Shown: positions 1-20,800 of the stretch, in pieces | Numbering within the stretch: position 1 is the stretch's first letter | Layout of the letters: each line of letters starts with the position of its first letter | Assembly (NCBI RefSeq): GCF_022023855.1 | Contig: NZ_CP059452.1 | Span: 117,501 to 181,500 of the forward strand | Direction: 5' to 3' | Source of the DNA: Azospirillum brasilense | Lineage (GTDB): Bacteria > Pseudomonadota > Alphaproteobacteria > Azospirillales > Azospirillaceae | DNA: 64,000 bases | Made by a program: the position numbers and the translations under genes | The notes under the pieces: generated by a model | The model's input: the letters and a program-made list of their open reading frames with translations, nothing else | Database searches by the model: none | Told to the model about the DNA's origin: nothing

Positions 1-747
<747 letters not shown>

Positions 748-1096: not shown

Positions 1097-1174
<78 letters not shown>

Positions 1175-1187
1175 ATCACCTGTTCGC

Positions 1188-1220
1188 CAAGGCCGGTTCC
1201 CATTCGGGACCGGCCTTTCG
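1188..1220 (+). terminator. rRNA operon terminator hairpin
   Basis: A strong stem (AAGGCCGGTTCCC with GGGACCGGCCTT, loop ATTC, one bulged T) lies 15 bases after the tRNA CCA end. It is followed by TTTCGCATTTCC, a weak T-rich tail. It is the likely intrinsic terminator of the rRNA operon. Confidence 0.8.
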
Positions 1221-1452
1221 CATTTCCTGACCGCAGATCCGATCAAGGCGCTTCGGGTCATGAGGCCGCATCGCCAGCCTCGTCGACAATTTCGGATGTT
1301 GGCTCCGGTTTTGGGGGGGTGAATTGTGCCGTTTTAGCACCAAGGCTGCTGCATACTTCCGCCCTTTCAGTCGAAATCGAGGGCTCGGGCGCCGAGGAAC
1401 GCCATTTTTTTGCCTGATCGTGTCCCGAAGCGTGGTGTAAGAGCCGAGGCGT
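1221..1452. other. spacer between rRNA operon and IS remnants
   Basis: No convincing gene is seen here. The stretch probably contains the outer end of the IS256-family remnant that begins at 1453. A stretch near 1340-1365, read on the minus strand (CGGAAGTATGCAGC), resembles one near 4259-4272 (CGGAAATATGCAGC) on the plus strand, so a short IS-end relic may be shared. This was compared only by eye. Confidence 0.4.
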
Positions 1453-2838
1453 TCATCTGGTCTCCGGCAGGTCTGGCCGAGAGGGCCACGTGGCCGCAGT
1501 AGGCAACGTGAGGACGAGATCATCGCGCAGTGGAGCGATGGTTTCCAGGGTCATGTAGCGCGCCCGCTGCACGGCCCATTCGTCGTTCTGTTCGAGCAGG
1601 ATGGCGCCGATCAGCCGGGTGATCGCCGCCTCGTTGGGGAAGATGCCGACGATCTCGGTGCGCCGCTTGATCTCTCCGTTCAACCGTTCCAGCGGGTTCG
1701 TACTGTGGATCTTGGCCCGATGCTCCTTGGGAAAGGTCATGAAGGCCAGCACATCCTCCCCGGCCTCGTCGAGCAGGGCGGCCAACTTGGGCAGCTTGGG
1801 GCGGACCTGATCGGCGACTTGGCGCCACTGCGCCTTGGCGGCGCCGGCGTTATCCTGGGCGAACGCAGTGGCGATGAAGGCCGACACCACGCGCCGGCCG
1901 CTCCGGCCGGCATGCGCCAGCGCGTTGCGCATGAAGTGTACCCGACAGCGCTGCCACGTGGCGCGGAACACCTTGGACACGGCGGCCTTGATGCCTTCGT
2001 GGGCGTCGGAGATCACCAGCTTCACCCCGGCCAGCCCACGACGCTTCAGCTTGCGCAGGAACTCGGTCCAGAAAGTTTCGGCCTCCGAGGTACCGAGTTG
2101 CGCGCCGTCGTGCCGCGCCGCGTCGGTGACGATGAAGCGCCGGATCAGACGGAACCGGCGGTCGATGGTGATGTGCGACTTGTAGCCGAACGCCGGGATC
2201 AGAAGTCCCTCCACCATGCGCGCCTCGGACCCGTCGAGCGTCGGCCCCGGCTTCGCCTTGACCCGTCCCCGCTTCACCGTCCAGCGCGCCTGTGTGTCCT
2301 TCTGGCGCGCCTTGGCCGGCGGCCAGGGCGGGTCTTCACCGTCACGGATCTGGCGCTTCTCCTCCCGGGTCAGCCGCTGCCGGGGCGCCTCCACGATGGA
2401 AGCGTCGATGATCTGGCCACCCAGAGCAAAGTAGCCACGCTCCTTCAGGTCCGCGTCGAAGCGGGCGAACAGACCCTCCATCGCTCCCGCTGTCACCAGC
2501 GCCTCGCGGAACAGCCAGATCGTCGTCCGGTCCGGAACCCGGTCGCCCAATCCCAAACCGAGGAACCGCATGAACGACAGCCGGTCGCGCACCTGATACT
2601 CCGCCTGCTCGTCCGACAGGCCGTACAGCGCCTGCAGCACCAGGATCTTGAACATCATCACCGCGTCCAGCGGCGGCCGTCCACCCCGGGAGCGATCCTT
2701 GCGCCCCAAGGCCGCGTCCAGCGTCGGGCGGAAAACCTCGAAGTCCACCACTGACAGCAGCCGCTCAAGCGGATCGCCGCTCTTGCTCAACTCCGCATAG
2801 CGGTCCTGAAGATCGAACAGCCCAGCTTGACCGGCCAT
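1453..2838 (-). CDS. chimeric transposase: IS5-family N-terminus joined in frame to IS256-family C-terminus
   Basis: The open frame reads through two unrelated transposases. Residues 1 to about 247 are an IS5-family transposase and match the copy at 4284-5375, including the first catalytic Asp context IIDASIVEAP. After DAARHDGAQL the sequence switches to an IS256 (Transposase_mut) C-terminus, with EAETFWTEFLR, LVISDAHEGIKAAV, RCRVHFMRNALAH and STNPLERLNGEIKRR. The switch lies at about 2096, where identity with the second IS5 copy stops. The likely start is the ATG at 2838, preceded by GGAGGG; an upstream in-frame start at 2856 is less likely. The IS5 half lacks its second Asp and catalytic Glu, and the IS256 half lacks the first Asp, so a working transposase is not expected. 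Confidence 0.85.
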   Translation of the reverse strand: MAGQAGLFDLQDRYAELSKSGDPLERLLSVVDFEVFRPTLDAALGRKDRSRGGRPPLDAVMMFKILVLQALYGLSDEQAEYQVRDRLSFMRFLGLGLGDRVPDRTTIWLFREALVTAGAMEGLFARFDADLKERGYFALGGQIIDASIVEAPRQRLTREEKRQIRDGEDPPWPPAKARQKDTQARWTVKRGRVKAKPGPTLDGSEARMVEGLLIPAFGYKSHITIDRRFRLIRRFIVTDAARHDGAQLGTSEAETFWTEFLRKLKRRGLAGVKLVISDAHEGIKAAVSKVFRATWQRCRVHFMRNALAHAGRSGRRVVSAFIATAFAQDNAGAAKAQWRQVADQVRPKLPKLAALLDEAGEDVLAFMTFPKEHRAKIHSTNPLERLNGEIKRRTEIVGIFPNEAAITRLIGAILLEQNDEWAVQRARYMTLETIAPLRDDLVLTLPTAATWPSRPDLPETR

Positions 2839-2911
2839 GCTCCCTCCACATCCCACTTCAAACCAAGGGAATCACGGGAACACCGACTGCGCTACCGTTT
2901 TTCGAGGTATC
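2096..2911 (-). mobile_element. IS5-family element copy 1, 5' part, truncated by recombination
   Basis: The sequence is nearly identical to 4630-5449, allowing for a 3-base difference at the G run near 2330/4865. Identity on the right ends exactly at GAGGTATCC (2911 here, 5449 in copy 2), which marks the element end. On the left, identity ends at the IS256 junction. The element therefore kept its promoter-proximal end and lost its distal part. Confidence 0.8.
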
Positions 2912-3018
2912 CAGGTGTCAACGCCAAGGGGCGGCTGCTGGGGAGCCGCCCAGGTTCGAAACCTCCTACACCGCCGGGAACCATTGGGAGTGCAAATCAA
3001 AACATAATTGGAACCAAT

Positions 3019-3842
3019 TTATTCATCCAATAGCCCAGAAGATTTAGCTATACTAAAAAATACATCTCCAGCATGCTCCATAAAATTCTTTGTAATATAA
3101 GAATGAGGGGCAAGTTGTCTGATTCTATCGTGCACCACACAAGCGCTTGCAGCAAAAACTATCTGCTCAAATACAGTCATATCATCTTTATCCTCAGTGA
3201 ATTCTTCCTTAACCTTAGAAATTGATTCATAGAGAAGCTCTAGCGCCCCTTCAGAAAGTGATAGCTTTCATCTTCACTTAAAAGTCCCATTCTTAAAAAT
3301 AGCTCAAGTAAATACAATTTATACCCTGGAACATCTTTCCACTCGGATTCATCTTTGAGCGTCAGAGCAAACAGTCTCATATAATGGCGCACTCTAGCAT
3401 GCCATACCAACTCGTGAGGAGTGCTTGCTTCAAAAGGTATGCGACAGCGAATCGGAACATCTTTACCACCAGTGCAGTGGCTATAAATGTCCCAGTAGCT
3501 ATAATCAATTTCAGGTATTGTATACCGCGCCTCGCGCGTTTCTATGTTCCTGCGAACTACAACGACCAAATCACTGCCAAGGATCCATTGCCTTACAGTG
3601 AGAGGATCTATGTACTCCGTCCAATCAGAAGGCACATCTTCTGGGATTGTCGTGCCTTTAGACTGAACAAATATTCGAAACGGCTCAATGATCTTAGAAA
3701 CTTTGTCGTGCATTACTACAAAGAAATCTTCTCCATAATCCTTAGAAATTGGATTGCATGCATATCCAAGCTCTACGAATTCTGCCTGTGTACGCAGATC
3801 AGCTCGATCTCCAGTGCTGTGATTATCATCCCTCTTTGCCAT
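3019..3842 (-). pseudogene. DUF4365-type protein, AT-rich, frameshifted near its 3' end
   Basis: The first 200 codons (3842 to 3240) read as a DUF4365-like domain: DYGEDFFVVM near residue 38, then IFVQSKGT, a D/E...QxK arrangement as in PD-(D/E)XK-like nucleases found in defence loci. The frame stops at 3240. Directly after it another frame stays open from about 3265 to the TAA at 3019 and reads like the true C-terminus (GALELLYESISKVKEEF, then VFAASACVVHDRIRQLAPHS). A single frameshift near 3250-3265 therefore split a protein of about 270 residues. Base use is strikingly AT-rich against the GC-rich surroundings, a sign of recent transfer. The nuclease role is inferred from the family only. 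Confidence 0.7.
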
Positions 3843-4283
3843 TTAATAATTCCTATTCAGCTAAAGGATGTTTCCAACAGGCACAATGATACGCAGATGT
3901 AGCATACATGAAATCTCCAACGCTTCCGCAGCGAATTGATCCTCGCATTTGATAATGAGGCGCCCTGAGGACCAGCGAAGAGCGATCAACGGCGAGGCGC
4001 TGGAGCGCTCGAGCCTGAACTTCTCGACCAAGATCCGCATCCGCGCCGCCGGCTGCTTGGCAAACTGGTAACTTCATTCCGACCGGCGAGGACGTTCGCG
4101 ACAGCAACGTGTTCACTACGCTGATGGCGAACCGCTGAATCAGACAGTTGAACACCTCGATAAACCGGCCTTGATCAACGGTTGAAGCCGCTGAAAGGGT
4201 GTGCCCCGATGAGAATCCGGCGATTTTGGCCGCCGAAGTACCAATTTCGTGCGAGAATGCGGAAATATGCAGCGGTTTTGGCG
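3843..4283. other. gene-poor stretch between DUF4365 gene and IS5 copy 2
   Basis: No supported gene is seen. The AT-rich composition changes back to GC-rich near 3950. A short plus-strand frame around 3965-4070 and another ending at 4138 could be relics of something older, but they match no family I recognise. The distal end of IS5 copy 2 should lie in 4180-4283, but without a clean second copy its edge cannot be fixed. Confidence 0.4.
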
Positions 4284-5375
4284 CTATGCGGGCGCAGTTC
4301 GCCCCTCAAGCCAAGCCAAGCGTCGGAAGTTGTAGGCGAGGTTGGCGATGCCGATCTTCACCGTCGCGCGGCCGAGGCCGATGGTGCGGATGAACAGCCC
4401 CATGCGCGCCTTCTGGTCGGCGAACACATGCTCGACGGCCGAGCGCACCGCCGAGCGGGCGCGGTTGGCACGCTGGTGGGGCTCCGGCATCGGCCGGCCC
4501 TTCGGCTTGCGGAAATGCACCATGCTGCGGCGCCCCGCCGCCGTGATGGCCGCTTCGTTGGTCTTCGAGCGGTAGGCGCTGTCCGCCCATACCCGGCTGT
4601 CGAAAGCGTCCGGGTTGAGCAGGCCCGGCAGTTGCGCGCCGTCGTGCCGCGCCGCGTCGGTGACGATGAAGCGCCGGATCAGACGGAACCGGCGGTCGAT
4701 GGTGATGTGCGACTTGTAGCCGAACGCCGGGATCAGAAGTCCCTCCACCATGCGCGCCTCGGACCCGTCGAGCGTCGGCCCCGGCTTCGCCTTGACCCGT
4801 CCCCGCTTCACCGTCCAGCGCGCCTGTGTGTCCTTCTGGCGCGCCTTGGCCGGCGGCCAGGGCGGGGGGTCTTCACCGTCACGGATCTGGCGCTTCTCCT
4901 CCCGGGTCAGCCGCTGCCGGGGCGCCTCCACGATGGAAGCGTCGATGATCTAGCCACCCAGAGCAAAGTAGCCACGCTCCTTCAGGTCCGCGTCGAAGCG
5001 GGCGAACAGACCCTCCATCGCTCCCGCTGTCACCAGCGCCTCGCGGAACAGCCAGATCGTCGTCCGGTCCGGAACCCGGTCGCCCAATCCCAAACCGAGG
5101 AACCGCATGAACGACAGCCGGTCGCGCACCTGATACTCCGCCTGCTCGTCCGACAGGCCGTACAGCGCCTGCAGCACCAGGATCTTGAACATCATCACCG
5201 CGTCCAGCGGCGGCCGTCCACCCCGGGAGCGATCCTTGCGCCCCAAGGCCGCGTCCAGCGTCGGGCGGAAAACCTCGAAGTCCACCATTGACAGCAGCCG
5301 CTCAAGCGGATCGCCGCTCTTGCTCAGTTCTGCGTAGCGATCCTGCAGATCGAACAGTCCAGGTTGCCCAGCCAT
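4284..5375 (-). pseudogene. IS5-family transposase, copy 2, interrupted by a stop codon
   Basis: This is the fuller copy of the IS5 transposase seen at 2096-2838. Translation starts at 5375 (GGAGGG upstream) and is stopped by TAG at 4950-4952, where copy 1 has CAG (Gln) in GGQIIDAS. Past the stop the frame continues open to 4284 and includes VWADSAYRSK (second catalytic Asp) and RSAVEHVFADQKARMG (catalytic Glu region). A 3-base insertion adds one Pro relative to copy 1. Without stop suppression it cannot make a full transposase, although all catalytic residues are still encoded. Confidence 0.88.
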
Positions 5376-5449
5376 GCTCCCTCCACATCCCACTTCAAAC
5401 CAAGGGAATCACGGGAACACCGACTGCGCTACCGTTTTTCGAGGTATCC
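4284..5449 (-). mobile_element. IS5-family element copy 2
   Basis: The right end is set at GAGGTATCC (5449), where identity with copy 1 stops. The left end lies somewhere in 4180-4283. The element interrupts an IS256-family transposase gene: the sequence immediately right of 5449 is codons of an IS256 N-terminus. Copy 1 has different flanking sequence, so the two are separate insertions. Confidence 0.75.
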
Positions 5450-5540
5450 GCTCGGCCGCGAAGCCGATCATCTCGCGCAGCACGTCGGTGTCAGGACACT
5501 TCTCCAGCAGCGCGCGAAACGCCATCATCTCGACGGTCAT
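5450..5540 (-). pseudogene. IS256-family transposase, N-terminal fragment (about 30 codons)
   Basis: Reading leftward from the ATG at 5540 gives MTVEMMAFRALLEK, then PDTDVLREMIGFAAER, the usual opening of IS256/Mutator transposases. It is cut off by the end of the IS5 copy at 5449. The stretch 5541-5697 to its right, containing CTACACCACGCTCAGGGACG, is probably the upstream leader and terminal region of the same element. Confidence 0.7.
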
Positions 5541-5676
5541 CGTGGTCACCCTTCGGTCGGGTTGAGGTGTGGTGACCAGACTCTACCGAAGGCCCACGAT
5601 GACCGCCCCGCTGTGGACGACCGGCCCGCCTACGCCAGCTTTGGGGGCGCTTCGGCGGGCCGGTTCCCCACAGTTC

Positions 5677-6481
5677 CTACACCACGCTCAGGGACGTGAC
5701 CCGGCATTGGGCGCCAGGGGCCACGGCGCGAGTGATCTCCTCCAGGTGCAGCGCCATCGCCTCACTCGTGCAGCGCGGCAGCACCAGGGCCGCGCCCTTG
5801 CCCTGGGCTGGGCAGATCGCGCCGAGCGCGTGCGCTGATCGTGCTGGGCCGCCGGTCGGGTGCCCCGGCGCGCCCAACGACGGGTGATCTTGTTTTCCTG
5901 GCCGACACGCGCCTCGTCCTGCCACCAGACTTCTATGGGCTTGCCGGCGGCCTCGTGCGCGGCGATCTGCGCCAGCAGGGCGGGGAAGTTTTTTTGAACG
6001 CCTCGGCGGCGCCGGGATCCTCGGCGTGGTGGCGGGGGCGGGCCGACAGCTTGCGCAAACCCAGAGCGCGCAGTTCCCGGCTCAGCGTCTGCTTGGAGAC
6101 GGTTACACGGAACTCGTTCCAGAGCCAGTGCAGCAGGTCGGCAATCCGCCAACGTACGACCCCATGCACCGCCGGGATCGGTCCATCCTCGACGACCTGG
6201 CACAGGGCCGCCCGGTGATGGTCGGCCAAGCGCGGCTGCGGGCCCGGCGCCTTGCCGGTCAGCAAGCCCGCCGGTCCCGCGTCATTGAAACGCAGCACCC
6301 AGTCGCGCACCGTTTGCAAGCCGACCCCGCCGATCTGCGCTGCAGCAAAACGCGGTTCTCCGTCGTAGATCGCCGCAAGGGTGAGCAGCCGGCGAACTTG
6401 GCCGGCATCGTGAGAGGCACGGGCAAGCCGACGCAGGGCGGCGGCATCGTAGTCACTGCGTAGCGGAACCGGAGCGGCCAT
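5677..6481 (-). pseudogene. IS630-family transposase, frameshifted and 3'-truncated
   Basis: The gene starts at 6481 (MAAPVPLRSDYDAAAL) with an HTH segment (RFAAAQIGGVGLQTVRDW) and the IS630 linker (RELRALGLRKLSARPRHH). The frame breaks in the run of seven Ts at 5989-5995; one more base restores FPALLAQIAAHEAAG and IEVWWQDEARVGQ, the DDE_3 catalytic segment. A second shift near 5840 leads to GAICPAQGKGAALVLPRC. The region with the remaining catalytic residues is missing. Not functional. Confidence 0.82.
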
Positions 6482-6575
6482 CGTGGACCTCGTCACCGTG
6501 GTCTCTGCGGTGAATCATGCGGCACGCTCCTCCGGCAATCGCTGCATGAGTCGTAATCCACAGGACTTGGTATTA

Positions 6576-7563
6576 GAGGCAGTTGAGAAGAAGTCCGAGG
6601 AAATTCAGTGCAAATGCGATGGCGGACGCGCGAGGCGCTTCACGAGAATGTGGCTCATCGCCATGTAAATGAATGCCTCCTCCGACTCTGGAAGGCGCTC
6701 GTAATCTTTTGACAAACGGCGATGTCTGCCAAGCCACGCGAATGTCCTTTCCACGACCCAGCGGCGCGCCAGAACATGGAAGCCTTTGGGAATTTCGGGA
6801 GGTTCCTGGCCAGGGGCGAGCCAAAAGCCCTGAATACCGGTCCACCAATGCTTGACGACTTCGATGGTCCAGCCGAGCCGGTCTTTGGCCCAGGTCTTCA
6901 GGCCTTGATAATGCGTGTCGGCCCAGACCAGCTGGATCGCGGGAAACCACAGGTGCAAGCCCGCCAGTAGGAGCATTCCTCCGGCCTTGTCATGAAGATC
7001 CGCCGGATGCACCCGCACCTTCAGAACGTCGCCTTCGGTGTCGACCAGAGCTTGCCGTTTCCGTCCACTGATCTTCTTGCCACCATCATACCCGCGCGGG
7101 CCGCCGGATTCGGTTGTTTTCACCGATTGACTGTCGATCGCCGCCGCCGTGGGTTGAGCTTTGCGGCCACGCCGCGTTCGATACTGCTCGCGCAGCGCCG
7201 CATTGACCTGTTCCCACTTCCCGCTTTTGCGCCAGCGGCGGAAGTGATCGTACACGTCCGTCCAAGGCGGCAGATCGTGGGGCATCATGCGCCAAGCGAT
7301 GCCGCCACGCAGGACATACAAACATCCGTCAATGATGCGCCTCAGGTCGTGTTTGCGCTGCGCTCCGCGATGCTCACTCTTCGTGAAGAGCTTCGAGACG
7401 ACCGCCCACTCGCCATCGGTCAAGTCTGTCGGGTAACGGTCCGGGGGCATGCGATCTCCTCCCAAGGCGCCGACTCTGCATGCTTGATCAACAGATCATT
7501 TGGGGCGCGCGTTTCGAGTCAGCATTGATGCTGTATTTTCTTATTATTCTTCTCAACTGCCTC
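6576..7563 (-). mobile_element. complete IS5-family element with terminal repeats and TTA target duplication
   Basis: Perfect 17-base inverted repeats (GAGGCAGTTGAGAAGAA at 6576-6592 and its complement at 7547-7563) bound a 988-base element. TTA lies directly outside both ends (6573-6575 and 7564-7566), a 3-base target duplication as made by IS5-family groups that target TNA. It is the only clean, potentially active element here and probably inserted last, between the IS630 and IS110 remains. Confidence 0.92.
6605..7450 (-). CDS. IS5-family transposase, intact
   Basis: The protein has 281 residues with a DUF4096-like N-terminus (LTDGEWAVVSKLF) and a DDE core: AAIDSQSVKTTE (first Asp), LVWADTHYQGLK (second Asp) and VVERTFAWLGRHRRLSKDYE (Glu with the Y-(2)R-(3)E-(6)K-like signature). 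The start at 7450 is chosen because GGGAGGAG precedes it. No frameshift or stop is seen, so the element could still move. Confidence 0.93.
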   Translation of the reverse strand: MPPDRYPTDLTDGEWAVVSKLFTKSEHRGAQRKHDLRRIIDGCLYVLRGGIAWRMMPHDLPPWTDVYDHFRRWRKSGKWEQVNAALREQYRTRRGRKAQPTAAAIDSQSVKTTESGGPRGYDGGKKISGRKRQALVDTEGDVLKVRVHPADLHDKAGGMLLLAGLHLWFPAIQLVWADTHYQGLKTWAKDRLGWTIEVVKHWWTGIQGFWLAPGQEPPEIPKGFHVLARRWVVERTFAWLGRHRRLSKDYERLPESEEAFIYMAMSHILVKRLARPPSHLH

Positions 7564-7666
7564 TTAGTAGCTGGCCGCCCCTGCGACTCACCCGGTGGCG
7601 CTGCGGGCGCGGATCCGTAGTTGTCGTGTTGCCCGCCGCTCCCGCCGTTTATGAGGGAGAGCCATC

Positions 7667-8897
7667 ATGCGACGCATTGTCGGAATGGACATCCTCCGCA
7701 CCTTTGCCAAGGTCGTGTTCTGGAAGGAAGGCCGGTTGCGCCCAGCCGGACGGGTCGACATGACCCGCTCGGGCCTGGAAGGCTTCGACCACCTGCTGAC
7801 CAAGGAGGACGAGGTCGTCGTCGAGGCGACCGGCAACAGCATGGCCGTCGTCCGCATCCTCTCGCCTTTCGTGGCGCGCGTGATCATCGCCAATCCGCTG
7901 GAGGTCAAGGCGATCGCCACGCCCACGTCAAGACCGACAAGATCGACGCCGGCGTGCTGGCCTCCTTGCGGGCCGCCGACATCCTGCCCGAGGTCTGGTT
8001 GCCCGCCGCCGAAACCGAGCGGCGCCGCCGCCTGATGACCCGGCGCAACCAAGTGGTCCGGTACCGCACACGGATCAAGAACGAGGTCCACGCGATCCTG
8101 CACGCGCATCTGATTCCGCCGTGCCCGCACGCCGACCTGTTCGGCTTACGGGGACGGGCTTGGCTGGCGCGCCAGCCGCTTCCCGAGGACGAACGGGCCG
8201 CCATCGAGCGCCATCTGCGCGAACTTGATCGGTTGTGCGAGGATCTGCAGGTGCTTGACCGCGAAGTCGCCCAGGCGTTCTGCGACGATCCCGCGGTCAG
8301 GCGACTGTTGACGATCTCCGGCGTCAACCTCACCGTCGCCGCCGGGCCGCTTGCCGCGATCGGCGATATCCATCGTTTCGACAGCCCGCAGAATCTGGTG
8401 AGCTACGTCGGGCTCAACCCCCGGGTTCACCAATCCGGCCTTGGGCTCGCCCAATACGGCCGCATCAGCAAGCGGGGCGGCCCCATGCCCGTGCCTTGCT
8501 GGTCGAGGCGGCCTAGGCAGCGGCCAAGGCGCCGGGGCTGTTGCGAGCGTTCTTCCTGCGCATCCGCGCCCGTCGTGGCCATCAGGTGGCGGCGATGGCG
8601 GTGGCCCGCAAGCTGGCGGTTCTGTGCCGGCACCTCCTGACTAAGGACGCCGATTACCAATGGGCGCGGCCGGCACTGGTCGCCCACAAGACCCGTGCCA
8701 TGGAATTGCACGCGGGCGCGCCGATGAGGAAGGGAAACCGACGCGGCACGGCCTACGCCTACAACGTCAAGGAGCTGCGCGATCACGAGATCGCTATGGC
8801 GGAACAAGCCCAACAGGCCTACGAGGAGTTCGTCAGCCACTGGCAGCCGCGCCGTCCCAAGACAGCGCCGCCAGCAGCAAAAGCAGCACCCGCGTGA
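7667..8897 (+). pseudogene. IS110/IS1111-family transposase, broken by frameshifts and a stop
   Basis: The gene starts at 7667 (MRRIVGMDILRTFAKVVFW) with the DEDD RuvC-like fold: VGMDI (D), VVVEATGNS (E) and HVKTDKIDAGVLA (DxxD). The C-terminal Transposase_20 part follows (LTISGVNLTVAAGPLAAIGD, SYVGLNPRVHQSG). The frame shifts near 7918 and again near 8483; after the second shift a TAG at 8514-8516 replaces an expected Trp. The tail ends at 8897. IS110 elements lack normal inverted repeats, so edges are not fixed. Confidence 0.85.
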
Positions 8898-9179
8898 GAG
8901 CTGTGACGGAGAATCGCCACCGATGACACCTACACGCTGAGCGCAAGATCAGCCCGCCCTTGGGACGAAGAAAGGGTCGCGCGGCACGGCTTGCCGTCAA
9001 GCCCTGCGCCAAAGGCGCACCGCTACGCGGCTGCGGGGCTTGACCGCGGCACCGCGCCGCGCGGAGGGGCATTCATGTCCCGAATGTCGGGAAGCGACCC
9101 GATACTTGCGAAGGCCCAGACCACGGTCGCGGGTGCAGAAGGCTGTCGGCAGGCCGGGTCACCTCGGGATTTGTTAATC
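8898..9179. other. spacer between IS110 and IS256 remnants
   Basis: No gene is seen. The first part is probably the 3' non-coding end of the IS110 element. GCAGGGCTTGACGGC-like segments on both strands around 8990-9050 (TTGCCGTCAAGCCCTGCG and GCGGCTGCGGGGCTTGACCGCG) form an imperfect inverted repeat. From about 9070 the sequence probably includes unrelated DNA brought next to the truncated IS256 transposase. Confidence 0.35.
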
Positions 9180-10195
9180 TCATCCGTGGTGTAAAGGATA
9201 CGCCGGACCTCGCGGGGGAAGGCGAAGAATGGGATGACCTCCTGCCACGCCCGCCGCCATGCCTTGCCGATGGCCGCATACTTTTCGCCCCAGGCTCCGT
9301 CTTCGAAGGCGGTCAGGGCCGCCTCGGCGGCCTTGTCATCGACGGCGTCGTAGACCGTCTTCAGCGCGGCGGCGATGGCCTTGCGGTCCTTCCAGGACGC
9401 GAACTCCATGCTGTGGCGCAGCAGGTGGACGATGCAGGTCTGGACGATCGTCTCGGGATGGGCGGCGGCTATCGCCTCGGGGAAAGCCCTTCAGCCCATC
9501 GACCACGGCCAGCAGGATGTCCTTACGCCCCGGTTCTTCAACTCGTTGAGGACGCGCAGCCAGAACTTGGCGCCTTCGTTCTGCTTGATCCACAGGCCCA
9601 GCACCTCCTTGGCGCCGTCGGCCCGCACGCCAATCGCCACGTGGATGGCCTTGTTGCGCACCAAGCCTTCATCCCGGATCTTGGCCCGGATGGCATCCAG
9701 GAACACCAGCGGGTAGATTGCCTCCAGGGACCGGTTCTGCCAGGTTGTCACCTCCTCGATCACTGCGTCCGTCAGCGTGGAGATCAGGGCGGCCGGCACC
9801 TCGATGCCATAAAGCTCCCGCAGGTGCCCGGTGATCTCCCGCGTTGACATGCCCCGCGCGTACATCGAAATGATCTTCTCGTCAAAGCCGGGGAACCGCC
9901 GCTGGTACTTGGCGATCAGTGCCGGGTCGAACGTTCCCGTCCGGTCGCGTGGAATGGACAAGTCCATCGACCCGCCCTCGGTCAACACCGTCTTGCGGCC
10001 GTAGCCGTTGCGACGGTTGCCGCTCTCGTCACCGGCCAAGTGATGATCCAGCTCCGCCTTCAGCGCCCGCTCCGTCAGCGCCTTCTTCAACTGGTCGAGC
10101 AGGCCGTTCGGATCGAACGCCGTCTTGGCATCAGTATCGGCCAGCAACTGGGCGAGGATGGCATCCGGGATAACGGGCTCTTTGCGTTGTGCCAT
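9180..10195 (-). pseudogene. IS256-family transposase, two frameshifts, C-terminus missing
   Basis: The gene starts at 10195 (MAQRKEPVIPDAILAQLLA). The Mutator core is recognisable: NRRNGYGRKTVLTEGGSMDL, then RDRTGTFDPALIAKYQRR, then VFLDAIRAKIRDEG (first Asp). A lost base near 9540 and a gained base near 9488 (CCCC run) shift the frame around KDILLAVVDGLKGFP (second Asp context), so the frame is restored after both changes. The sequence then runs to RREVRRILYTT-like residues near 9185 and ends before the catalytic Glu. Not functional. Confidence 0.85.
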
Positions 10196-10254
10196 GCAGG
10201 GGCTCCTTTCGCTTCAGGATAACCCCACCGAGCACGAAATTCCGGACACTCCCT
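9180..10254 (-). mobile_element. IS256-family element remnant inserted in the helicase remnant
   Basis: The transposase-proximal end lies at about 10225-10254 (minus strand GAGTGTCCGGAATTTCGTGC, an IS256-type terminal sequence). It abuts and ends the helicase reading frame of 10254-11511. The other end is missing. Confidence 0.6.
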
Positions 10255-11511
10255 CGCAGAACGCATACCCCTTGTGCAGCGACTCCAGGCAGGTGTCGCC
10301 CTGCTTGGACAGCTTGGCCGGAACCGCATGGCCCACCGCGCCCGCTCCATGGCCCGGCAGAGGGCGAAGTCCAAGCTGCGGGCGCCGCCCATCCAGCGCG
10401 ACCGCCCAACCTCGCCCGACGGCTCAACGGACACGAGACGGCGTGTCCAGTCCACAGCGATGACACGCCAGCTTCGACTGGCCAACAGCAGCGTGGCGCC
10501 CTCGCCCTCGCCCTCGCCCCGTTGCAGGCTGGTGGGATCGACCTGACCGATCTCCGCGGCACCGAAACGCACGGACAGCAGCAGCGGCGTGGTGAAGGCG
10601 GCCATCAGGTCCATGAAGTTCCGGCGGCCAGTCTCGCGGTCGCCGCGCGGTTCCATGCCGAGGATGCCACCGTCATCCGCGATGATGCCGCTTTCCAACA
10701 AATGATCGACGACGGAGCAGGCATGCTGATCATGGATGCCGGCGAACACGCGGCCGAGCCAGCCCCGCCAATCTCCTCTCGCCAATCCCCGTTCCTGGAG
10801 AATCAGGGCCATCACCTGGTGGGCAAGGAGGTGCAACGGGTCCGGGGGCGGCTCCACCAGCTCGACCCAGCCGCCCCACAGGCGGATGACACCGGCGGCC
10901 TGAAGGAACGCGCTTTCGGACGTCGCCAGGAACAGGCAATTGCGCGTGGAACCGGAGCGGCGCCCCGTGCGCCCAATGCGTTGGAGGAACGACGATACGC
11001 TCGACGGCGCGTCAATCTGGATGACCCGATCAAGGTCGCCGACATCGATCCCCGGTTCCAGGGTGCATGTGGCGACGATGACGCAGTCGTCACCGCTGGC
11101 GAAGGCCTCCTCCGAGCGGCGGCGCTCGTCGATGCCGAGCGAGCTGTGCGAGACAAAGGTCCGCACGCCTGCGGTTCGGAGCAATGCCCCCAGGCGCTCG
11201 ACCTTGCTGCGGCTGTCGCAGAAGACGAGCCGCTTTTCCCCTCGATGGACCCGCGACAGCACGGTCGCCGCGCTCTCCAGGGAGTCGACATGATCGAGCA
11301 TCACCTCGCCGCCAGCCGGCGGTCCCGGCTGACCGACCACATCGCCGTCCTCGCCGCACGACAGCCACGCCAGGAGGACATCCGGATTGCCGACAGTGGC
11401 TGACAGGCCGATGCGCTGGACCGGCCGCCCGGCGACACGGGAGAGCCGTTCGGCCACCGCCAGCAGGTGCCAGCCATGGTCATCCCCGGCGAAAGCGTGC
11501 AACACGCCCAT
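10254..11511 (-). pseudogene. Lhr-like helicase remnant (BrxHI-like), N-terminus deleted, C-terminus cut by IS256
   Basis: The frame preserves the second half of a superfamily 2 helicase: HAFAGDDHGWHLLAVAERL (just after the DExH box), IGLSATVGNPDVLLAWL (motif III), RLVFCDSRSKVERLGALL (motif IV), CVIVATCTLEPGIDVG (motif V) and FLQRIGRTGRRSG (motif VI). An Lhr-type C-terminal region follows. Walker A and the DExH box are lost at a deletion near 11505-11511 that joins it in frame to the kinase remnant upstream. The C-terminus is interrupted near 10254 by the IS256 element. Lhr-like helicases of this kind (BrxHI) accompany PglW in BREX type 2; the assignment is by family resemblance. Confidence 0.72.
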
Positions 11512-12943
11512 CGAGGCGATACGGGCCGGCACCTCCGGGTGGGTACCGGTGCGGATCAAATCGACGAGGCTCTTTGCATCGCCCCGTCCACCACATCCGG
11601 CACCCGCAGAGCTCCGCTGGCGCGCAGCCGCGCCGCGAGGTCGAGCGGCGTGGCCGCCGGCGGTTGCCCGGTGAACAGATGGAAGGCGATCGCGGCCAGC
11701 GAGAAGACGTCGTGATGCGGGCCGGACTGGGGGCCCCGCCGCTCAACGCTTCCGGCGCGATGTAGACCTTGGCTGGGTCCTCGACATAGCTGTCGAGACG
11801 AGTGGACCCGGAGGTGACATGGACGGTGCCGGTCGTGGTGGCCTCGCGCGCCGCCGTCTGCCAGTTCATCACCTACAAGCGCGGGAAGGGCTGCTCGACG
11901 TCGCGCACGAGGACGCTTTGGAGCGCGTGCGCACGGTGGTAGAGCCGCTTGCCACGGGCGTACTTCAGCGTCTCGGCAAGTTGGCGCAGGATGTGCAACC
12001 TGAGGTCCACCCCCATCCGCTCCAGATGCTCGTGCATCAGGAAGTCGAGCCGGATCGATTCGGGATATAGTCGAAGATCAGCGCCGGGCCGCGGTCGGTG
12101 TCCTTGTACTCCTGCACCCGAAGCACGCCGGAATGGTCGATGCCTTCCAGCACCTTGAGCTCCCGCGCCGCCAGCCGGCCGAGCGACTGGAGTTCCTCCT
12201 CGCCAGCCGCCGCCGCGTGGGGATAGAAGCGGATGCGCCGGGGAACGCCCAGCGACACGTGACGGCCGGCCCAGTCCTGCCAGCCGTCGCCTTCGGCGAG
12301 AATGCGCGTCAACTCGTAATCGGCGATGCGGCGCTCGCGCAGGGCCGGGGCCGGATGCCGGCCTCCGAGATCGCACGGCAGACCATGCGCGCCTGTTCGG
12401 CGGTCACCGGGGGACGTGGTGGTGCCGACGGCAGGCCGGCAGTCAGGGTGTTGATGATGCCTCCACCCCATTTCGACGGACGGGGCCCGAAGGTGGACAG
12501 CGCCGTAGCCGGATCGACCCGCCACACAAGCTCCGGGGCGGACAGAAAGATCACCGCCGTCACGTAGGGCAGGCGCAACCGGGCACGGGTGACCGCGGCC
12601 TGACATCCGAGCAGCCCGGCGAGACGCTCGGCCTTGCGGTTGGCGAGGATCAGCGGATTGTCGTCGGTGCGGCGGCGGCCTTCGGTGGTCCAGGTCCACT
12701 GTGGGGATCGCCGCCGAGCTGACCGGGACGGCTCTTGATCTCCACCAGGAACAGGCCGTGCGGCGACAGGATGGGCGCGTGGACCCCGTTGACCTTGCCG
12801 TCATCATCGATGAACTCGACATTCGACCAAGCGTACCAGGGGTCCTGATCCGGCAGCCGCTCGCGCAGAAACTCCAGGGCCTCGCGCTCCCAAGGGAACG
12901 GGGACTCGGTGATCGTCAACCAGCGCTGCGCAACCATGACCAT
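11512..12943 (-). pseudogene. NERD-domain serine/threonine kinase remnant (PglW-like), multiply frameshifted
   Basis: The first frame (12943 leftward) gives WLTITESPFPWEREALEFL, then WYAWSNVEFIDDDG and GLFLVEIKSRPGQLGGD, a NERD domain as at the start of BREX PglW kinases. After a shift near 12705 a second frame gives WTWTTEGRRRTDDNPLILAN and LPYVTAVIFLSAPELVW. A third gives the kinase N-lobe (ADYELTRILAEGDGWQDWAG). A fourth gives LDFLMHEHLERMGVDLRLHI and the catalytic-loop-like LYHRA..PQSVLV, then VYIAPEALSG (APE motif). At least four frameshifts make it dead. It ends at THPEVPARIASM, where a deletion joins it to the helicase remnant. Confidence 0.72.
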
Positions 12944-13049
12944 GAATACCTCTCCCGATAGCACGCACAGGATGTGACAGGCGCGTCGCCTGATCCAGGA
13001 GCGAGTTCCGTGGGATGAAGATCCAAGGCGCTGCCCAGCCCAGGGCGTG

Positions 13050-13364
13050 CTAGTGCCCCTGGGCGATCATGGCGTCAATCGCGGCGATGACCCGGATGTG
13101 CTCGCCATCGAGACTTCCTACTGCGGGACCGAGCACGCCGGTGGGGATGGTCGCCATCTGAAGAGGATTCAGGATGACCGTCGTACCGTCGATGGTGAAT
13201 TCCGGGTTCAGGGTCGGATCGCGGTACCTGACTTCGCTCGCCAGGACCAGCGGCACGACGACGCGATCCGCACGCTCCTTCCACCGGTCGCCCTGCACGA
13301 CGAGGACGAACGGGATCGCAGCCTTGGTGCGGCCCGGATTGCGGTGGACGTCGAACTGCGGCAT
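13050..13364 (-). CDS. ccdB: CcdB-family toxin
   Basis: A 104-residue CcdB-like protein: MPQFDVHRNPGR at the start (compare MQFKVYTYKRE in F-plasmid CcdB), IPFVLVVQGDRW in the middle and the conserved end GEHIRVIAAIDAMIAQGH. Known CcdB proteins poison DNA gyrase subunit A; the last residues (W-G-I in F CcdB) that contact gyrase are changed here to QGH, so gyrase targeting is not certain. It starts one base inside the antitoxin stop codon (TGATG overlap), typical of coupled expression. It may stabilise this transposon-rich region. Confidence 0.88.
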   Translation of the reverse strand: MPQFDVHRNPGRTKAAIPFVLVVQGDRWKERADRVVVPLVLASEVRYRDPTLNPEFTIDGTTVILNPLQMATIPTGVLGPAVGSLDGEHIRVIAAIDAMIAQGH

Positions 13365-13657
13365 CAGCGGCTCTCGTCGTCCGGCATGAAGTCACGATTC
13401 CACTCGTCGGAGAAACGGCCATGCCGTTCGTCGAAGGCATTCCACTCAGCGGCGACCTTCCGGCGATGTTCCTGATCGTCCTCCCGCTTCCGCCGTTCCG
13501 TCCGTGCCCACGTGGCAAGGAGCGTCTCGATCGTGCCGGAGAGATTGTCGGTATAGGCTTGGGCGACTCGAACGAGGTCTTCGTTGAGCGTGACGTTGAC
13601 ACGCTTCTTCGAAGCCCCGACATCGTAGCCCGCCGCGGTCCGCTGCATGTGACTCAT
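13364..13657 (-). CDS. ccdA: CcdA-family antitoxin
   Basis: A 97-residue antitoxin: KKRVNVTLNEDLVRVAQAY is the ribbon-helix-helix DNA-binding start, and the C-terminal EHRRKVAAEWNAFDERHGRF is the toxin-binding tail seen in CcdA. The start at 13657 (MSHMQRTA) is chosen because GGAGGG lies 4 bases upstream; longer readings to 13747 have no signal. CcdA proteins repress their own promoter together with CcdB, so the upstream region 13658-13830 probably holds the operator. It appears intact. Confidence 0.9.
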   Translation of the reverse strand: MSHMQRTAAGYDVGASKKRVNVTLNEDLVRVAQAYTDNLSGTIETLLATWARTERRKREDDQEHRRKVAAEWNAFDERHGRFSDEWNRDFMPDDESR

Positions 13658-13793
13658 GCTACCCTCCACCGTGTCGTGTGTATGGTAATGCGCATTGATG
13701 AGGCAGGCAAGAAGGCTCCTCCTCGAGGAGCAATGGAACGCCGCCAAGCACCGGGCAGTTCATCTCGCCATAGGCGCTTTTTCGGTGTGAAAG

Positions 13794-13823
13794 CTTCAAC
13801 GCCCTTCAACGAGCTTCAACGAA
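13794..13823. repeat. three tandem 10-base repeats, CTTCAACGNN
   Basis: CTTCAACGCC, CTTCAACGAG and CTTCAACGAA follow each other without gaps about 140 bases upstream of ccdA. One helical turn per unit is the spacing expected for cooperative binding by a small DNA-binding protein such as CcdA, but nothing else supports a function. Confidence 0.5.
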
Positions 13824-14094
13824 GCCCCAGTCAGTTCGCGTTAGGTTCCGTCATCTTCCGTGAACTGAAATCGAGAAATATCAATGGGTTCATCGCGGTG
13901 GCGGCGTCCCTCGCCGCCGAAACATTTTTTGGAATCCCGCGCCTTTTGCTCGAAGCGCCATCTCCTCCGCCCTCGAGCGGCATTCACACCAAAGGTGGCC
14001 GAATGAGCTTGCGCATGCCATGCGGGCTTTCTCACACAGGCGATTTATAGCGCCGCTACGCTATAATTCCCTAAACCTTGCATAACATTCCACG
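13824..14094. other. non-coding stretch upstream of ccdAB
   Basis: No gene is recognised here. The region 13855-14060 is of mixed composition with TTTTTTGG and AAATATCAATG segments, and ends in TTATAGCGCCGCTACGCTATAATTC, a palindromic motif (TATAGCG/CGCTATA at 14046-14065) of unknown role. Confidence 0.35.
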
Positions 14095-14406
14095 CAGCCA
14101 TGCCGCTTGGGATCGGGGGCGGCGAGGATGATGGCCTTGAGCGTCGCCTGTTCGCCTTCACTCAGCCACTCCGGCCGGCCGGGCAGCGGGCGGTCGTAGA
14201 GCCCGGCCTACGCCTTCCGCGTTGTAGCGCACCACCGCGTCGCGCAGGGCTTGGCGGTCCATGCCGGCCAGCCGCGCCGCTTCCGCCCGGCCCACCCCGT
14301 CGAGTGCATGGGCGATGGCGAACATCCGCGCCGCCACCCGCCCTTTGCTTTCGCGCCGCGCCAGGGCACGCAATTCGCTGGCGCTCAGGTCTTCCCGGAT
14401 CGGCAA
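14095..14406 (-). pseudogene. IS630-family transposase N-terminal fragment, frameshifted
   Basis: The frame from 14406 reads MPIREDLSASELRALARRES, then RMFAIAHALDGVGRAEAARL and MDRQALRDAVVRYNAEGVG, the HTH of IS630-type transposases. After a shift near 14200 it continues as GRPEWLSEGEQATLKAIILA. The catalytic domain is missing. It differs from the IS630 fragment at 5677-6481. Confidence 0.7.
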
Positions 14407-14836
14407 CGACGCTGGCTTTCGTTCTTCCCCATCGTGATGGTGAATCGAATCACGGATCGCGCGCTTTGGGAATCCCCCCAGTGAGTCAGCACTTCCGCTC
14501 CCCGGTATGACTGGTCCGTTGGCAACCTGCCAGAAATGTTCATTTTACGTTCTATCCGGAGAGAGGACTGTGCATTCTGAAAACCTCTGGTTTTCAATTC
14601 AATCCACTCGCGACATCTTTCCGTGTGGAGCATCCCTCCGCGGCTGATGCGTGCGTGCTCTCGCGGGGAGCAAGAAACTGTTGAGAAAATAGGGATTTTT
14701 ACGGGTGCATCTCCGCGCTTCCGACCAGTAACGCATCACGGACGCTCCTATATACCAATAATTAGCTCTTGGTCATGCATTGATCTGTCTGGGACCGGTG
14801 TGTGTGCCGGCCGCGTGACGTGAGGGCTGAAAGATC
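14407..14836. other. upstream region of the giant adhesin
   Basis: No gene is seen. A perfect 7-base hairpin (GAAAACC-TCT-GGTTTTC) lies at 14579-14595. The last 140 bases are more AT-rich (CTATATACCAATAATTAGCTC at 14750-14770) and probably hold the promoter of the adhesin gene. Confidence 0.4.
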
Positions 14837-17800
14837 GTGGCGAATCCAACCTTCACAATGATCGGCACCAACAGCTTCGGCCTTTCCGACACCGGAAGCG
14901 AGGCCGCCCCGGTGCTGGCGGATCTGGATGGTGATAACGATCTTGACCTTCTGGTCGGCAACGCGGACGGAAACACGCTCTTCTTCCGGAATACCGGAAC
15001 GACACTGTCGCCGACTTTCACGCTGGACAGCACCAATCCGTTCGGCATCACCAACGTCAGCGCGGGCGGCGCGCTCCCCGGTCTGGTGGACATCGACGGC
15101 GACGGCGATCTCGACCTGTTCATCGGCAACCATGCCGGCAGCACGCTGTTCTTCCGCAACAACGGGACCTCAGCGCAGGCGCCGACCTTCTCGCTGGAGG
15201 GCACCAATCCATTCGGCATCCAGAACGCCGGCAGCTACGGGGCGCCGAGCTTCGCCGATCTGGACGGCGATGACGATCTTGATCTTCTGATCGGCAGTGC
15301 GGACGGGAATATTTTCTTTTACCGCAACAGCGGCTCGACGCTGTTGCCGACCTTCACGCTGGCAGGAACCAATCCCTTCAGCCTCCCCCGCGACCTTGAC
15401 GGCTACGCGTCGCCCGCTCTGGCGGACATCAACGGGGACGGCCTCGTCGATCTCATTACCAAGAGCACCGTCTATGTCAACGTCGGCACGGCGGCGGCGC
15501 CGACCTTTTCGCTGTTCGCCACCAATCCCTATGGCAATCCCGGACCCGGTGCCTACCCGCGGCCCGCCCTGGGCGATCTCGACGGCGACGGCGACCGCGA
15601 TCTGGTGATCGGCGTCGACGGGGGCAGCCTGGAGTATTTCCGCAACGTCGCCCCGGTGACCGTGACCCTCGGCAACGGCGGCAACACGATCGCGCTGTCG
15701 CAGATCAACACTTTGACCGGCGGCACGGGTACCGACGTGGTCTCGCTGGTAGAAATCGGTGCGACCTACCTGGTCACCGGGATCGAGACGCTGACCGGCA
15801 GCACCGCCACCGACGCGGTGACGCTGGGCGGCGGCGGCAACACGCTGCTGGTGAGCCGGGTCGAGACGCTGGCCGGCGGCTCCGGCACCGACGTGGTGAC
15901 GCTGGGCTCCTTCGGGAACACGATGCTGGTGAGCGGCGTCGAGACGCTGACCGGCGGCATCGGCACCGATGTGGCGATCCTGGGCTCCCTCGGGAACACG
16001 CTGCTGGTGGACGGCGTCGAGACGCTGACCGGCGGCCTCGGCATCGACGTGGTGACGCTGGGCAACAGCGCGGGCAACACGCTGACGGTGTTCCGGCTGG
16101 AGACGCTGACCGGCGGGGCCGGTACCGACGTGGTGACGTTCGCCAGCGGCGGCAACACGCTGCTGGCGGAGGGCATCGAAACGCTGACCGGCGCCGTCGG
16201 TGTCGATTCGGTGACGCTGGGCAACGGCGGCAACACGGTGACGGTCCGCTTGCTGGAGAGCCTCATCGGCGGCTCCGGCACCGACATCGTGACGCTGGGC
16301 ACCGGCGGCAACGCGCTGACGGTCCGGCTCATGGAGAGCATCATCGGCGGCTCCGGGTCCGACACCGTGACGCTGGGCACCGGCGGCAACACGGTGTGGG
16401 TGAGCGGCGTCGAGACGCTGCTGGGTGGTTCCGGGGCCGACACCGCGACGCTGGACAGCAATGGCAACACGCTGACGACCCGGCTTGTGGAGACGCTGTT
16501 CGGCGGCTCCGGGTCCGACACCGTGACGCTGGGCACCGGCGGCAACACGCTGTGGGTGAGCGGCGTCGAGACGCTGCTGGGTGGTTCCGGGGCCGACACC
16601 GCGACGCTCGCCAGCGGCGGCAACACGGTGACGGTCCGCTTGCTGGAGAGCCTCATCGGCGGCTCCGGCACCGACATCGTGTTGCTCGGCACCGGCGGCA
16701 ACACGCTGAGGGTGAGCGGCATCGAGACGCTGACTGGCGGTTCCGGCACCGACGTGGTGACGCTGCTCACCGGCGGGAACACGTTGACGGTGTCGCTGCT
16801 GGAGTCGCTGCTCGGCGCCATCGGCACCGACGTGGTGACGCTGGGCAGCGCCGGCAACACCATGCTGGTGTCCGCTCTGGAAACGCTGACCGGCGGTTCC
16901 GGCCTCGACGTGGTGACGGTCTCCGCCAGCGGACTGACCGCGCTGGTCACCGGCATCGAGACGTTGAACGGCAACAGCGGTAGGGACGCCGTGACGCTCG
17001 GCGACAGCGCGGGCACCACCATCCAGGTGTCGCGGCTGGAGACGCTGACCGGCAGCGTCGGCACCGATGTGGTGACGTTTGGCGGAACCTTCGGCAACAC
17101 CTTGATGGTCAGCGGCATCGAGACGCTGACCGGCGGCACCGCGACCGACGTTGTGACGCTGGGCAGCGACGGCAACACCATCGAGGTGTCGGAGGTCGAG
17201 ACGCTGTTTGGCGGCTCCGGCACAGATGTCGTGACGCTGGGCGGCGGCGGCAACACGCTGCTGGTCAGGCTGCTGGAGACGCTGACCGGCGGTTCCGGCA
17301 CCGACGTGGTGACGTTCGGCACCGGCGGCAACGTGATGACGGCGAGCGGTGTCGAAACGATCAAGGGCGGCAGCGGCCTCGACATCGTGACGCTCGGCGA
17401 CAGTGCCGGCAACACGCTCACAGTGTGGCGGATCGAGACGCTGATCGGCACGTCCGGCACCGACGCGGTGACGCTGGGCAGCGCCGGCAACACGCTGCTG
17501 GTGGATGGTGTCGAGACGGTGAGCGGCGGCATCGGCACCGACTTGGTGGAACTGGGCAGCGCCGGCAACACGCTGCTGGTGAGCGGCGTCGAGACGCTGA
17601 CCGGCGGCACCGGCACCGACGTGGTGACGCTGGGCGGCGGCGGCAACACGCTGCTGGTGAGTGGTGTCGAAACGTTGACCGGCGGTGCCGACACCGACGT
17701 GGTCACGCTGGGCAGCGACGGCAACACTCTGGCGGTGACCATGCTGGAGACGCTGATCGGTGGGACCGGTACGGACGTGGTGACTTTCTCCCCGGCCGGC

Positions 17801-20800
17801 AACCAGGGGACGCTCTTCGTTTCCGGTGTTGAGACCGTCTACACACCGTTCCAAACTTTGACGCTCAACGGTATCGACACACTGATCGTGCTGCCGGCCA
17901 GCCCGACAGTCCCGGTGCTCAACCCGGCGTCGGATAGCGGAGTGGTCGGTGACGCCTTGACGAACGCGTCGCAGCCCACGTTGACGGGGACGGCCGACGC
18001 CGACAGTGTCGTGCATTTGTACGGAAACGGTGTTGAGATCGGGACAGGAACGGCCGACAGCTCCGGTGCTTGGACGGTGATCCCTGGCACGGCGCTTGCT
18101 GACGGAATCTGGACGTTGACGGCCAGGGGGACCCTATCCGGCATCGTGGGCGGGGTGTCGGGGCCTCTCCTGGTGACCATCGACACCGGCGCCTCATCGC
18201 CAACCGCTTTGGCACTGGCGGCTTCGTCGAACAGCGGGTCCACGGCGGACACGCTGACGAACGTGACGGCGCCGGTGATCACCGGCAGCGTGGCCGAGGC
18301 TGGCGTTGTGGTGCTGTACGAGGGCAGCACCGCTCTTGGTACGGTGACCGCTGCGGCGGCAGGGGCGTGGAGCATCACCGCAGCCTCGCTGAGCGACGGT
18401 GCGCACACGCTGACCGCGACGGTGACCGATGCGGCGGGCAACAGCTCCTCGGCATCCGCGGCGCTGACCGTGACCATCGACACCGGCGCCTCATCGCCAA
18501 CCGCTTTGGCACTGGCGGCTTCGTCGAACAGCGGGTCGACCTCCGACACGCTGACCAACGTGGCAGCACCGGTGATCACCGGCAGCGTGGCCGAGGCTGG
18601 CGTTGTGGTGCTGTACGAGGGCAGCACCGCTCTTGGCACCGTGACCGCTGCGGCGGCAGGGGCGTGGAGCATCACCGCAGCCTCGCTGAGCGACGGTGCG
18701 CACACGCTGACCGCGACGGTGACCGATGCGGCGGGCAACAGCTCCTCGGCATCCGCGGCGCTGACCGTGACCATCGACACCGGCGCCTCATCGCCAACCG
18801 CTTTGGCACTGGCGGCTTCGTCGAACAGCGGGTCGACCTCCGACACGCTGACCAACGTGGCAGCACCGGTGATCACCGGCAGCGTGGCCGAGGCTGGCGT
18901 TGTGGTGCTGTACGAGGGCAGCACCGCTCTTGGCACCGTGACCGCTGCGGCGGCAGGGGCGTGGAGCATCACCGCAGCCTCGCTGAGCGACGGTGCGCAC
19001 ACGCTGACCGCGACGGTGACCGATGCGGCGGGCAACAGCTCCTCGGCATCCGCGGCGCTGACCGTGACCATCGACACCGGCGCCTCATCGCCAACCGCTT
19101 TGGCACTGGCGGCTTCGTCGAACAGCGGGTCGACCTCCGACACGCTGACCAACGTGGCAGCACCGGTGATCACCGGCAGCGTGGCCGAGGCTGGCGTTGT
19201 GGTGCTGTACGAGGGCAGCACCGCTCTTGGCACCGTGACCGCTGCGGCGGCAGGGGCGTGGAGCATCACCGCAGCCTCGCTGAGCGACGGTGCGCACACG
19301 CTGACCGCGACGGTGACCGACGCGGCGGGCAACAGCTCCTCGGCATCCGCGGCGCTGACCGTGACCATCGACACCGGCGCCTCATCGCCAACCGCTTTGG
19401 CGCTTGCCGTGGGTTCGAACAGCGGGTTGACCTCCGACACGCTGACGAACGTGACGGCGCCGGTGATCACCGGCAGCGTGGCCGAGGCTGGCGTTGTGGT
19501 GCTGTACGAGGGCAGCACCGCTCTTGGTACGGTGACCGCTGCGGCGGCAGGGGCGTGGAGCATCACCGCAGCCTCGCTGAGCGACGGTGCGCACACGCTG
19601 ACCGCGACGGTGACCGACGCGACGGGCAACAGCTCCTCGGCATCCGCGGCGCTGACCGTGACCATCGACACCGGAGCAAGTGCTCCGACGGGTCTTGCTT
19701 TGGCTGCGGCATCCAACAGCGGGTCCACGGTGGACACGCTGACCAACGTGACGGCACCGGTGATCACCGGCAGCGTGGCCGAAGCCGGCGTCGTAGTGCT
19801 GTACGAGGGCAGCACCGCTCTTGGCACCGTGACCGCTGCGGCGGCAGGGGCGTGGAGCATCACCGCAGCCTCGCTGAGCGACGGTGCGCACACGCTGACC
19901 GCGACGGTGACCGATGCGGCGGGCAACAGCTCCTCGGCATCCGCGGCGCTGACCGTGACCATCGACACCGGCGCCTCATCGCCAACCGCTTTGGCGCTTG
20001 CCGTGGGTTCGAACAGCGGGTCGACCTCCGACACGCTGACCAACGTGGCAGCACCGGTGATCACCGGCAGCGTGGCCGAGGCTGGCGTTGTGGTGCTGTA
20101 CGAGGGCAGCACCGCTCTTGGTACGGTGACCGCTGCGGCGGCAGGGGCGTGGAGCATCACCGCAGCCTCGCTGAGCGACGGTGCGCACACGCTGACCGCG
20201 ACGGTGACCGATGCGGCGGGCAACAGCTCCTCGGCATCCGCGGCGCTGACCGTGACCATCGACACCGGCGCCTCATCGCCAACCGCTTTGGCGCTTGCCG
20301 TGGGTTCGAACAGCGGGTTGACCTCCGACACGCTGACGAACGTGACGGCGCCGGTGATCACCGGCAGCGTGGCCGAGGCTGGCGTTGTGGTGCTGTACGA
20401 GGGCAGCACCGCTCTTGGTACGGTGACCGCTGCGGCGGCAGGGGCGTGGAGCATCACCGCAGCCTCGCTGAGCGACGGTGCGCACACGCTGACCGCGACG
20501 GTGACCGACGCGGCAGGCAACAGCTCCTCGGCATCCGCGGCGCTGACCGTGACCATCGACACCGGAACACCGTCCGTTGCTATCGCGCTGAGCAGGGCGA
20601 CACTTGGGGTGGGGGAGACGGCAACCGTCACCTTTACGTTCAGTGAGGCGCCGGTTGGATTCTCGCTCTCGGCCGTCACAGCACAGAATGGGACGCTTTC
20701 AGACCTGTCCGTTCTGCCTGGAAGCGACGGATTGGTGTACACAGCCACCCTAACCCCAAGCGTGGAAATCAACACTTCCGACAGCCGGATCACCGTTGCT

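Follow-up and report, generated by a model that had tools for sequence, protein, structure and literature searches.

A broken remnant of a type 2 BREX operon, with its outer genes fused in frame, in Azospirillum brasilense

The Pgl system of Streptomyces coelicolor, the first type 2 BREX system described, is a working system that has a PglW kinase (PMC4365076). Here we describe a locus in a stretch of Azospirillum brasilense DNA (the window: 64,000 nucleotides, contig NZ_CP059452.1, positions 117,501 to 181,500) that resembles the Streptomyces system by the name of PglW alone and that differs from it in lacking pglX, pglY and pglZ. The minus strand from 12943 to 10250 carries the broken outer ends of a type 2 BREX operon, fused in frame, with the middle deleted. 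We confirm that this relic is a genuine but ordinary gene fossil whose deletion junction is unusually clear. It is a clear example of the loss of a large defence operon, in which a deletion between 10-bp repeats would have fused the two outer genes. No relic of this kind was found among the listed papers on BREX decay or Azospirillum BREX, as covered by titles and the openings of abstracts with few subscription journals included.

Intact type 2 BREX loci of Azospirillum

PglW scored above the curated cut-off in 4 of the 82 genomes of the order, all of them Azospirillum (4 of 45 genomes of the genus, the window's own included): A. cavernae K2W22B-5 (G011, NZ_QYUL01000001), A. halopraeferens DSM 3675 (G017), A. 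oryzae COC8 (G024) and Azospirillum sp. B21 (G037). A fifth locus, on plasmid NZ_CP054621 of A. oryzae KACC 14407, has scores identical to those of COC8. All five loci read pglW-pglX-pglY-pglZ-brxD-brxHI, in the same order and on one strand, which is the type 2 gene set according to PMC12839542. The A. cavernae proteins match, in order, PglW, an unassigned 259-aa ORF, PglX, BrxC/PglY, PglZ, BrxD and BrxHI, and the six named ones find counterparts in the other four loci, each unbroken and in the same order, at 72–95% identity.

In all five Azospirillum loci, two of which (those of A. oryzae) score identically, pglW and brxHI stand apart, each as its own gene at one end of the operon. The same arrangement, with pglW opening the operon and a separate DEAD/DEAH helicase gene closing it behind brxD, was found in three annotated plasmid records from other classes and phyla (Thiodictyon, Polaromonas and Streptomyces; H2, H3 and H6, taken from 828 matching records); in the Thiodictyon record, pglX itself is annotated as two pieces. 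Nowhere among these eight are the two parts naturally one gene, the arrangement that would have spoken against the preliminary description of the locus.

The pglW and brxHI remnants

The relic and its neighbours comprise the following features.

9186 to 10249, minus strand: truncated IS256-family (Mutator) element that ends brxHI; Transposase_mut / IS256 in two separate ORFs
10250 to 11510, minus strand: brxHI remnant; residues from about 158 to at least 549 of about 700, covering the second helicase lobe and some of the C-terminal domain
11501 to 11510, minus strand: deletion junction; single remaining copy, with two mismatches, of a 10-bp direct repeat
11511 to 12943, minus strand: pglW remnant; roughly the N-terminal third of PglW, with the NERD domain and the start of the kinase region
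13042 to 13884, minus strand: ccdAB toxin-antitoxin pair; Pfam CcdA / CcdB, 87.8% identity to A. cavernae
14086 to 14510, strand not assigned: IS630-like fragment at the outer edge of the relic region, repeated in many Azospirillum genomes

We read the minus strand from 12943 to 10250 in three frames and searched six pieces (12943 to 11559) and one long piece (11571-10252) separately against three libraries (PADLOC, NCBIfam and Pfam). The six pieces fell in line and without overlap on the PADLOC PglW profile PDLC02512 (3-77, 80-197, 200-295, 299-351, 359-402 and 406-460 of 1403), with E-values from 1e-30 to 2.2e-7. NCBIfam NF033442 (BREX_PglW) was the top match for 6 of 6 pieces, and Pfam NERD was found on the first (E 8.2e-7). 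The pieces are spread over three frames and one in-frame stop (TAG) interrupts them; the preliminary description had counted at least four frames, more than a single strand holds. Thus, of a PglW with NERD nuclease, kinase and C-terminal half, what is left is profile positions 3-460 of 1403 plus 21 residues.

The long piece matches the PADLOC BrxHI profile PDLC02503 at positions 158-549 of 698 (E 1.2e-157), so that a BrxHI with both lobes is not present, and Helicase_C is the sole Pfam domain above cut-off in it. Its alignment with intact BrxHI shows that the segment with Walker A (residues 45-53) is gone and that the junction lands on the DELH box (155-158), of which the D and E are not retained. 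The helicase had indeed been described as lacking Walker A and DExH. The first ~1160 bases of the brxHI part are free of frame breaks, and the frame is lost after residue 410 of the long piece, near the 3' end. A helicase stretch that reads TSTLELGID in two intact relatives is otherwise kept and carries a leucine-to-proline change.

Both parts are 89–90% identical in DNA to one intact operon, that of A. cavernae: 88.9% over window 11501-13007 (the pglW region) and 90.5% over 10244-11510 (brxHI). The two loci also share ccdAB upstream of pglW, and they differ in that the A. cavernae operon is intact (pglW, orf259, pglX, pglY/brxC, pglZ, brxD, brxHI) and has an extra 343-aa ORF between ccdAB and pglW. 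This ORF (L026 8902-9933, minus strand) had no match in PADLOC (at 1e-10) or in Pfam (at 1e-5), and it is not found between ccdAB and pglW either in the window or in a second species that keeps a pglW stub (G045, see below).

Could the pieces come from another NERD-kinase system, such as MADS? On the first piece, the match to the MADS kinase MAD6 was far weaker than that to PglW (3.2e-6 vs 1.9e-31), and the MkoA and PD-T4-6 kinases likewise fell far below PglW, so these candidates were rejected. The best PADLOC matches of the pieces are PglW and BrxHI. A dead BREX-like module made of a PglW-type NERD kinase and a BrxHI-type helicase had been proposed beforehand, and the family search bears this out far beyond chance, with all pieces matching these two families and no unrelated kinase or helicase as a best match. 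Comparisons with the relatives support the further proposal that this is a former phage-defence locus, namely a dead type 2 BREX remnant. Its left end, first placed at 10254, needs a slight shift: BrxHI similarity runs to about 10250, where the IS256-family element begins.

Does a BREX system of this kind survive elsewhere in the genome? When the A. cavernae operon DNA, starting at the pglW breakpoint and reaching beyond the brxHI end, was compared with the genome, it found the relic and 9 weak matches of at most 90 bp, with 40 of 1162 first-look candidates scored. PglZ is part of the three-protein BREX core (PMC12839542), and no PglZ domain (PF08665) was present in the genome among the candidates, 4 of 4 of which were scored. 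The core genes pglX, pglY/brxC and pglZ were thus not found in the genome, and neither was brxD in a DNA search that covers A. cavernae-like brxD and not distant BrxD. A surviving system was therefore not found by operon DNA or by PglZ. Domain scans call for caution here, as they can give PglW and BrxHI matches in genomes without such a system. Neither the pglW part nor the brxHI part is a working gene, and no working system is encoded by the remnant. Taken together, the comparisons make it very probable that this Azospirillum lineage once had a complete type 2 BREX (Pgl) operon and lost it by deletion and decay.

Deletion junction and decay

The first 21 residues of the long piece are PglW, 100% identical to PglW of A. 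cavernae, and residues 24-410 are BrxHI. Because both lie in a single frame, the in-frame fusion is real, just as the preliminary description had read the kinase passing into the helicase. In A. halopraeferens, A. oryzae COC8, Azospirillum sp. B21 and plasmid NZ_CP054621, the kept parts of the window lie 16.4–19.7 kb apart, at a lower DNA identity (75–84%). The deleted span thus measures about 15.5 kb on A. cavernae, 16.4–16.5 kb on COC8, B21 and the plasmid, and 19.7 kb on A. halopraeferens, in keeping with the earlier suggestion that a large deletion had removed everything between the two genes.

What made the deletion? The alignments of the window with A. cavernae pglW and with A. cavernae brxHI share ten bases, and both places in A. 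cavernae read TGGACGAGTT, once within pglW and once in the DELH-box codons of brxHI, where it covers the codons for D and E. One copy, differing at two bases, is left in the window. The shared breakpoint sequence is 10 bp identical in A. cavernae and 7 bp in A. halopraeferens. The GC-rich pglW and brxHI genes of A. cavernae share 43 runs of at least 10 bases, so that such runs are not rare and the 10-bp repeat alone does not prove the mechanism; a fraction of 5.6e-5 of all A. cavernae pglW/brxHI breakpoint pairs fall in such runs. Because both A. cavernae breakpoints carry the same 10 bp and the window retains one copy, the best explanation of the deletion, on present comparisons, is that short direct repeats recombined or slipped.

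The deletion would thus have run from the 10-bp repeat in pglW to its second copy in the DELH-box codons of brxHI and have removed about 15.5 kb: the rest of pglW, pglX, pglY, pglZ, brxD and the first lobe of brxHI. It joined the outer genes pglW and brxHI in frame, as the comparison with relatives shows. From the clean junction, the simplest reading is that it was one event.

Alternatively, a mobile element could have made the internal deletion, by an IS-mediated adjacent deletion or by recombination of two IS copies. IS remnants do flank the relic on both sides and are scattered from 1.4 to 10.2 kb of the window, and brxHI terminates at the end of an IS256 element. The pglW/brxHI junction itself, however, is without IS sequence, and in the closest relative the same 10 bp are found at both of its breakpoints, which makes this origin very unlikely. 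The earlier view that the locus decayed through IS activity and deletion thus holds for the deletion and, at the brxHI end, for IS activity, whereas the fusing deletion itself points to short direct repeats.

At the other end of brxHI, we compared three IS256 copies from other Azospirillum genomes, brxHI flank included. On the brxHI side, their matches stop at 10253, 10246 and 10281, and the opposite ends of the copies bear an inverted terminal repeat ending at 10246-10255. The element's end on this side is placed at 10246-10255 by two of the three copies, the third alignment reaching 10281. On the other side, all three match the window only up to 9186, so the copy in the window is truncated; its transposase frame is also interrupted (two ORFs). 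The last part of A. cavernae brxHI had no match in the window by DNA comparison. An IS256-family element thus cuts off the 3' end of brxHI, as the match limits show, and the remainder of brxHI beside it was presumably lost.

Compared with A. cavernae, the pglW part holds five frame-breaking indels and the brxHI part two uncompensated single-base ones, among which single indels could include sequence errors, one genome of the species being compared; A. halopraeferens against A. cavernae gave 0. We then assigned codon-position changes by parsimony to the branches of the window, A. cavernae and A. halopraeferens, in an unrooted comparison. For pglW, changes at codon positions 1/2/3 were 22/20/42 on the window branch, 11/8/35 for A. 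cavernae and 22/7/95 for A. halopraeferens; hence, positions 1+2 vs 3 stand at 42:42 on the window branch vs 48:130 on the branches of the two relatives (Fisher p 4.5e-4). For brxHI, they were 10/15/30, 7/4/23 and 21/17/80, giving 25:30 vs 49:103 (p 0.10, not significant alone). Tested together, the two parts gave p 1.3e-4. From these p values, relaxed constraint is clear for the pglW part and only suggestive for the brxHI part. The remnant thus combines indels that break the frame with a stop and an excess, demonstrated for pglW, of changes at constrained codon positions, and these features show decay.

Might the BrxHI half still be made and kept, perhaps as a binding or interfering fragment? 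The frame stays open through the junction, and an ORF that begins with an ATG at 11511 and stops at 10087 would yield 474 residues, of which about the first 390 are BrxHI with the second helicase lobe. Compared with pglW, brxHI also has fewer breaks of frame and weaker signs of relaxation. Yet this half lacks the ATPase core, with Walker A lost and the DELH box not kept, its 3' end is out of frame and cut by the IS element, and it carries the leucine-to-proline change in the TSTLELGID stretch. Neither PglZ nor other operon DNA was found in the genome, which also argues against a maintained half, and we consider one highly improbable. That the two parts are instead a natural one-gene NERD-kinase-helicase fusion, formed without a deletion, would suit their shared frame at the junction and can practically be dismissed, given that both PglW and BrxHI are cut inside conserved regions there and that every intact relative examined (5 of 5 Azospirillum loci and the three plasmid records) has a gene for each.

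Other relics and genomic setting

In G045 (L049, G045:C1:571000-590000), ccdAB is followed without a gap by the leader of pglW and its first 18 codons, after which the DNA is unlike the five BREX loci. The same 19 kb hold a SIR2 defence gene, beyond ccdAB as seen from pglW, and a type I restriction-like helicase. ccdAB is thus upstream of pglW in the window and in A. cavernae, and of the pglW stub in G045, so the operon seems, from this stub, to have been lost at the ccdAB-linked place in a second species too. Partial pglW genes, in two frames each, occur in G078 (L068) and G081 (L066) without other Pgl genes in the stretch fetched, and a less certain pglW fragment, of about 51% identity, occurs in G046 (L070). 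Among the 82 genomes of the order, 4 intact pglW genes thus face 4 or 5 relics (the window, G045, G078, G081 and the less certain G046), a ratio that is biased and small, the survey having used pglW alone and the G045 stub having been met through ccdAB. Relics being about as common as intact copies in this pglW-only search of the order hints at a quick turnover of type 2 BREX.

PglX is reported to be toxic when functional PglZ is missing (PMC4365076). Since stepwise loss would expose this toxicity and the joint removal of pglX and pglZ avoids that state, type 2 BREX may be lost by preferred one-step deletions that take both genes together and leave pglW stubs, an idea that we put forward tentatively and think rather unlikely.

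An rRNA operon and tRNA-Met lie at window 1-1173, and the locus had been described as an island next to an rRNA operon. With the right flank as a query, 14 genomes besides the window's own match nearly the whole query in one stretch; 7 relatives that share this flank were fetched. The conserved right flank starts at about 14508-14582, and similarity ends there in 7 of 7. In 6 of them, the 5–18 kb fetched beyond the flank edge had zero match to window 1-14507 on both strands; the seventh, G004 (19 kb fetched), gave only IS-tract matches, among which is an IS256 copy in inverted orientation, and a single match of 123 bp beside tRNA-Met. No rRNA operon, ccdAB or relic lies beside the right flank in any of the 7 fetched relatives, and a conserved defence slot by the rRNA operon was therefore rejected. 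The rRNA operon is thus not the ancestral setting: it and tRNA-Met became neighbours later, with a tract of IS remnants as the link.

That tract, at window 1400-9200 between the rRNA operon/tRNA-Met and the relic, holds transposase remnants (Mutator/IS256, DDE/DUF772, IS630-like and IS110), and parts of it are also found beside the same right flank in G004. On the outer side, the IS630-like fragment carries HTH_28/HTH_29 and a weak, below-cut-off IS630 match. Beyond it, window 14837-27751 (plus strand) is occupied by a 4304-aa ORF with many bacterial Ig-like domains, Calx-beta, cadherin-like, FG-GAP and RTX repeats, predicted to be a giant surface or secreted protein, and all 7 fetched relatives have its start region at this flank.
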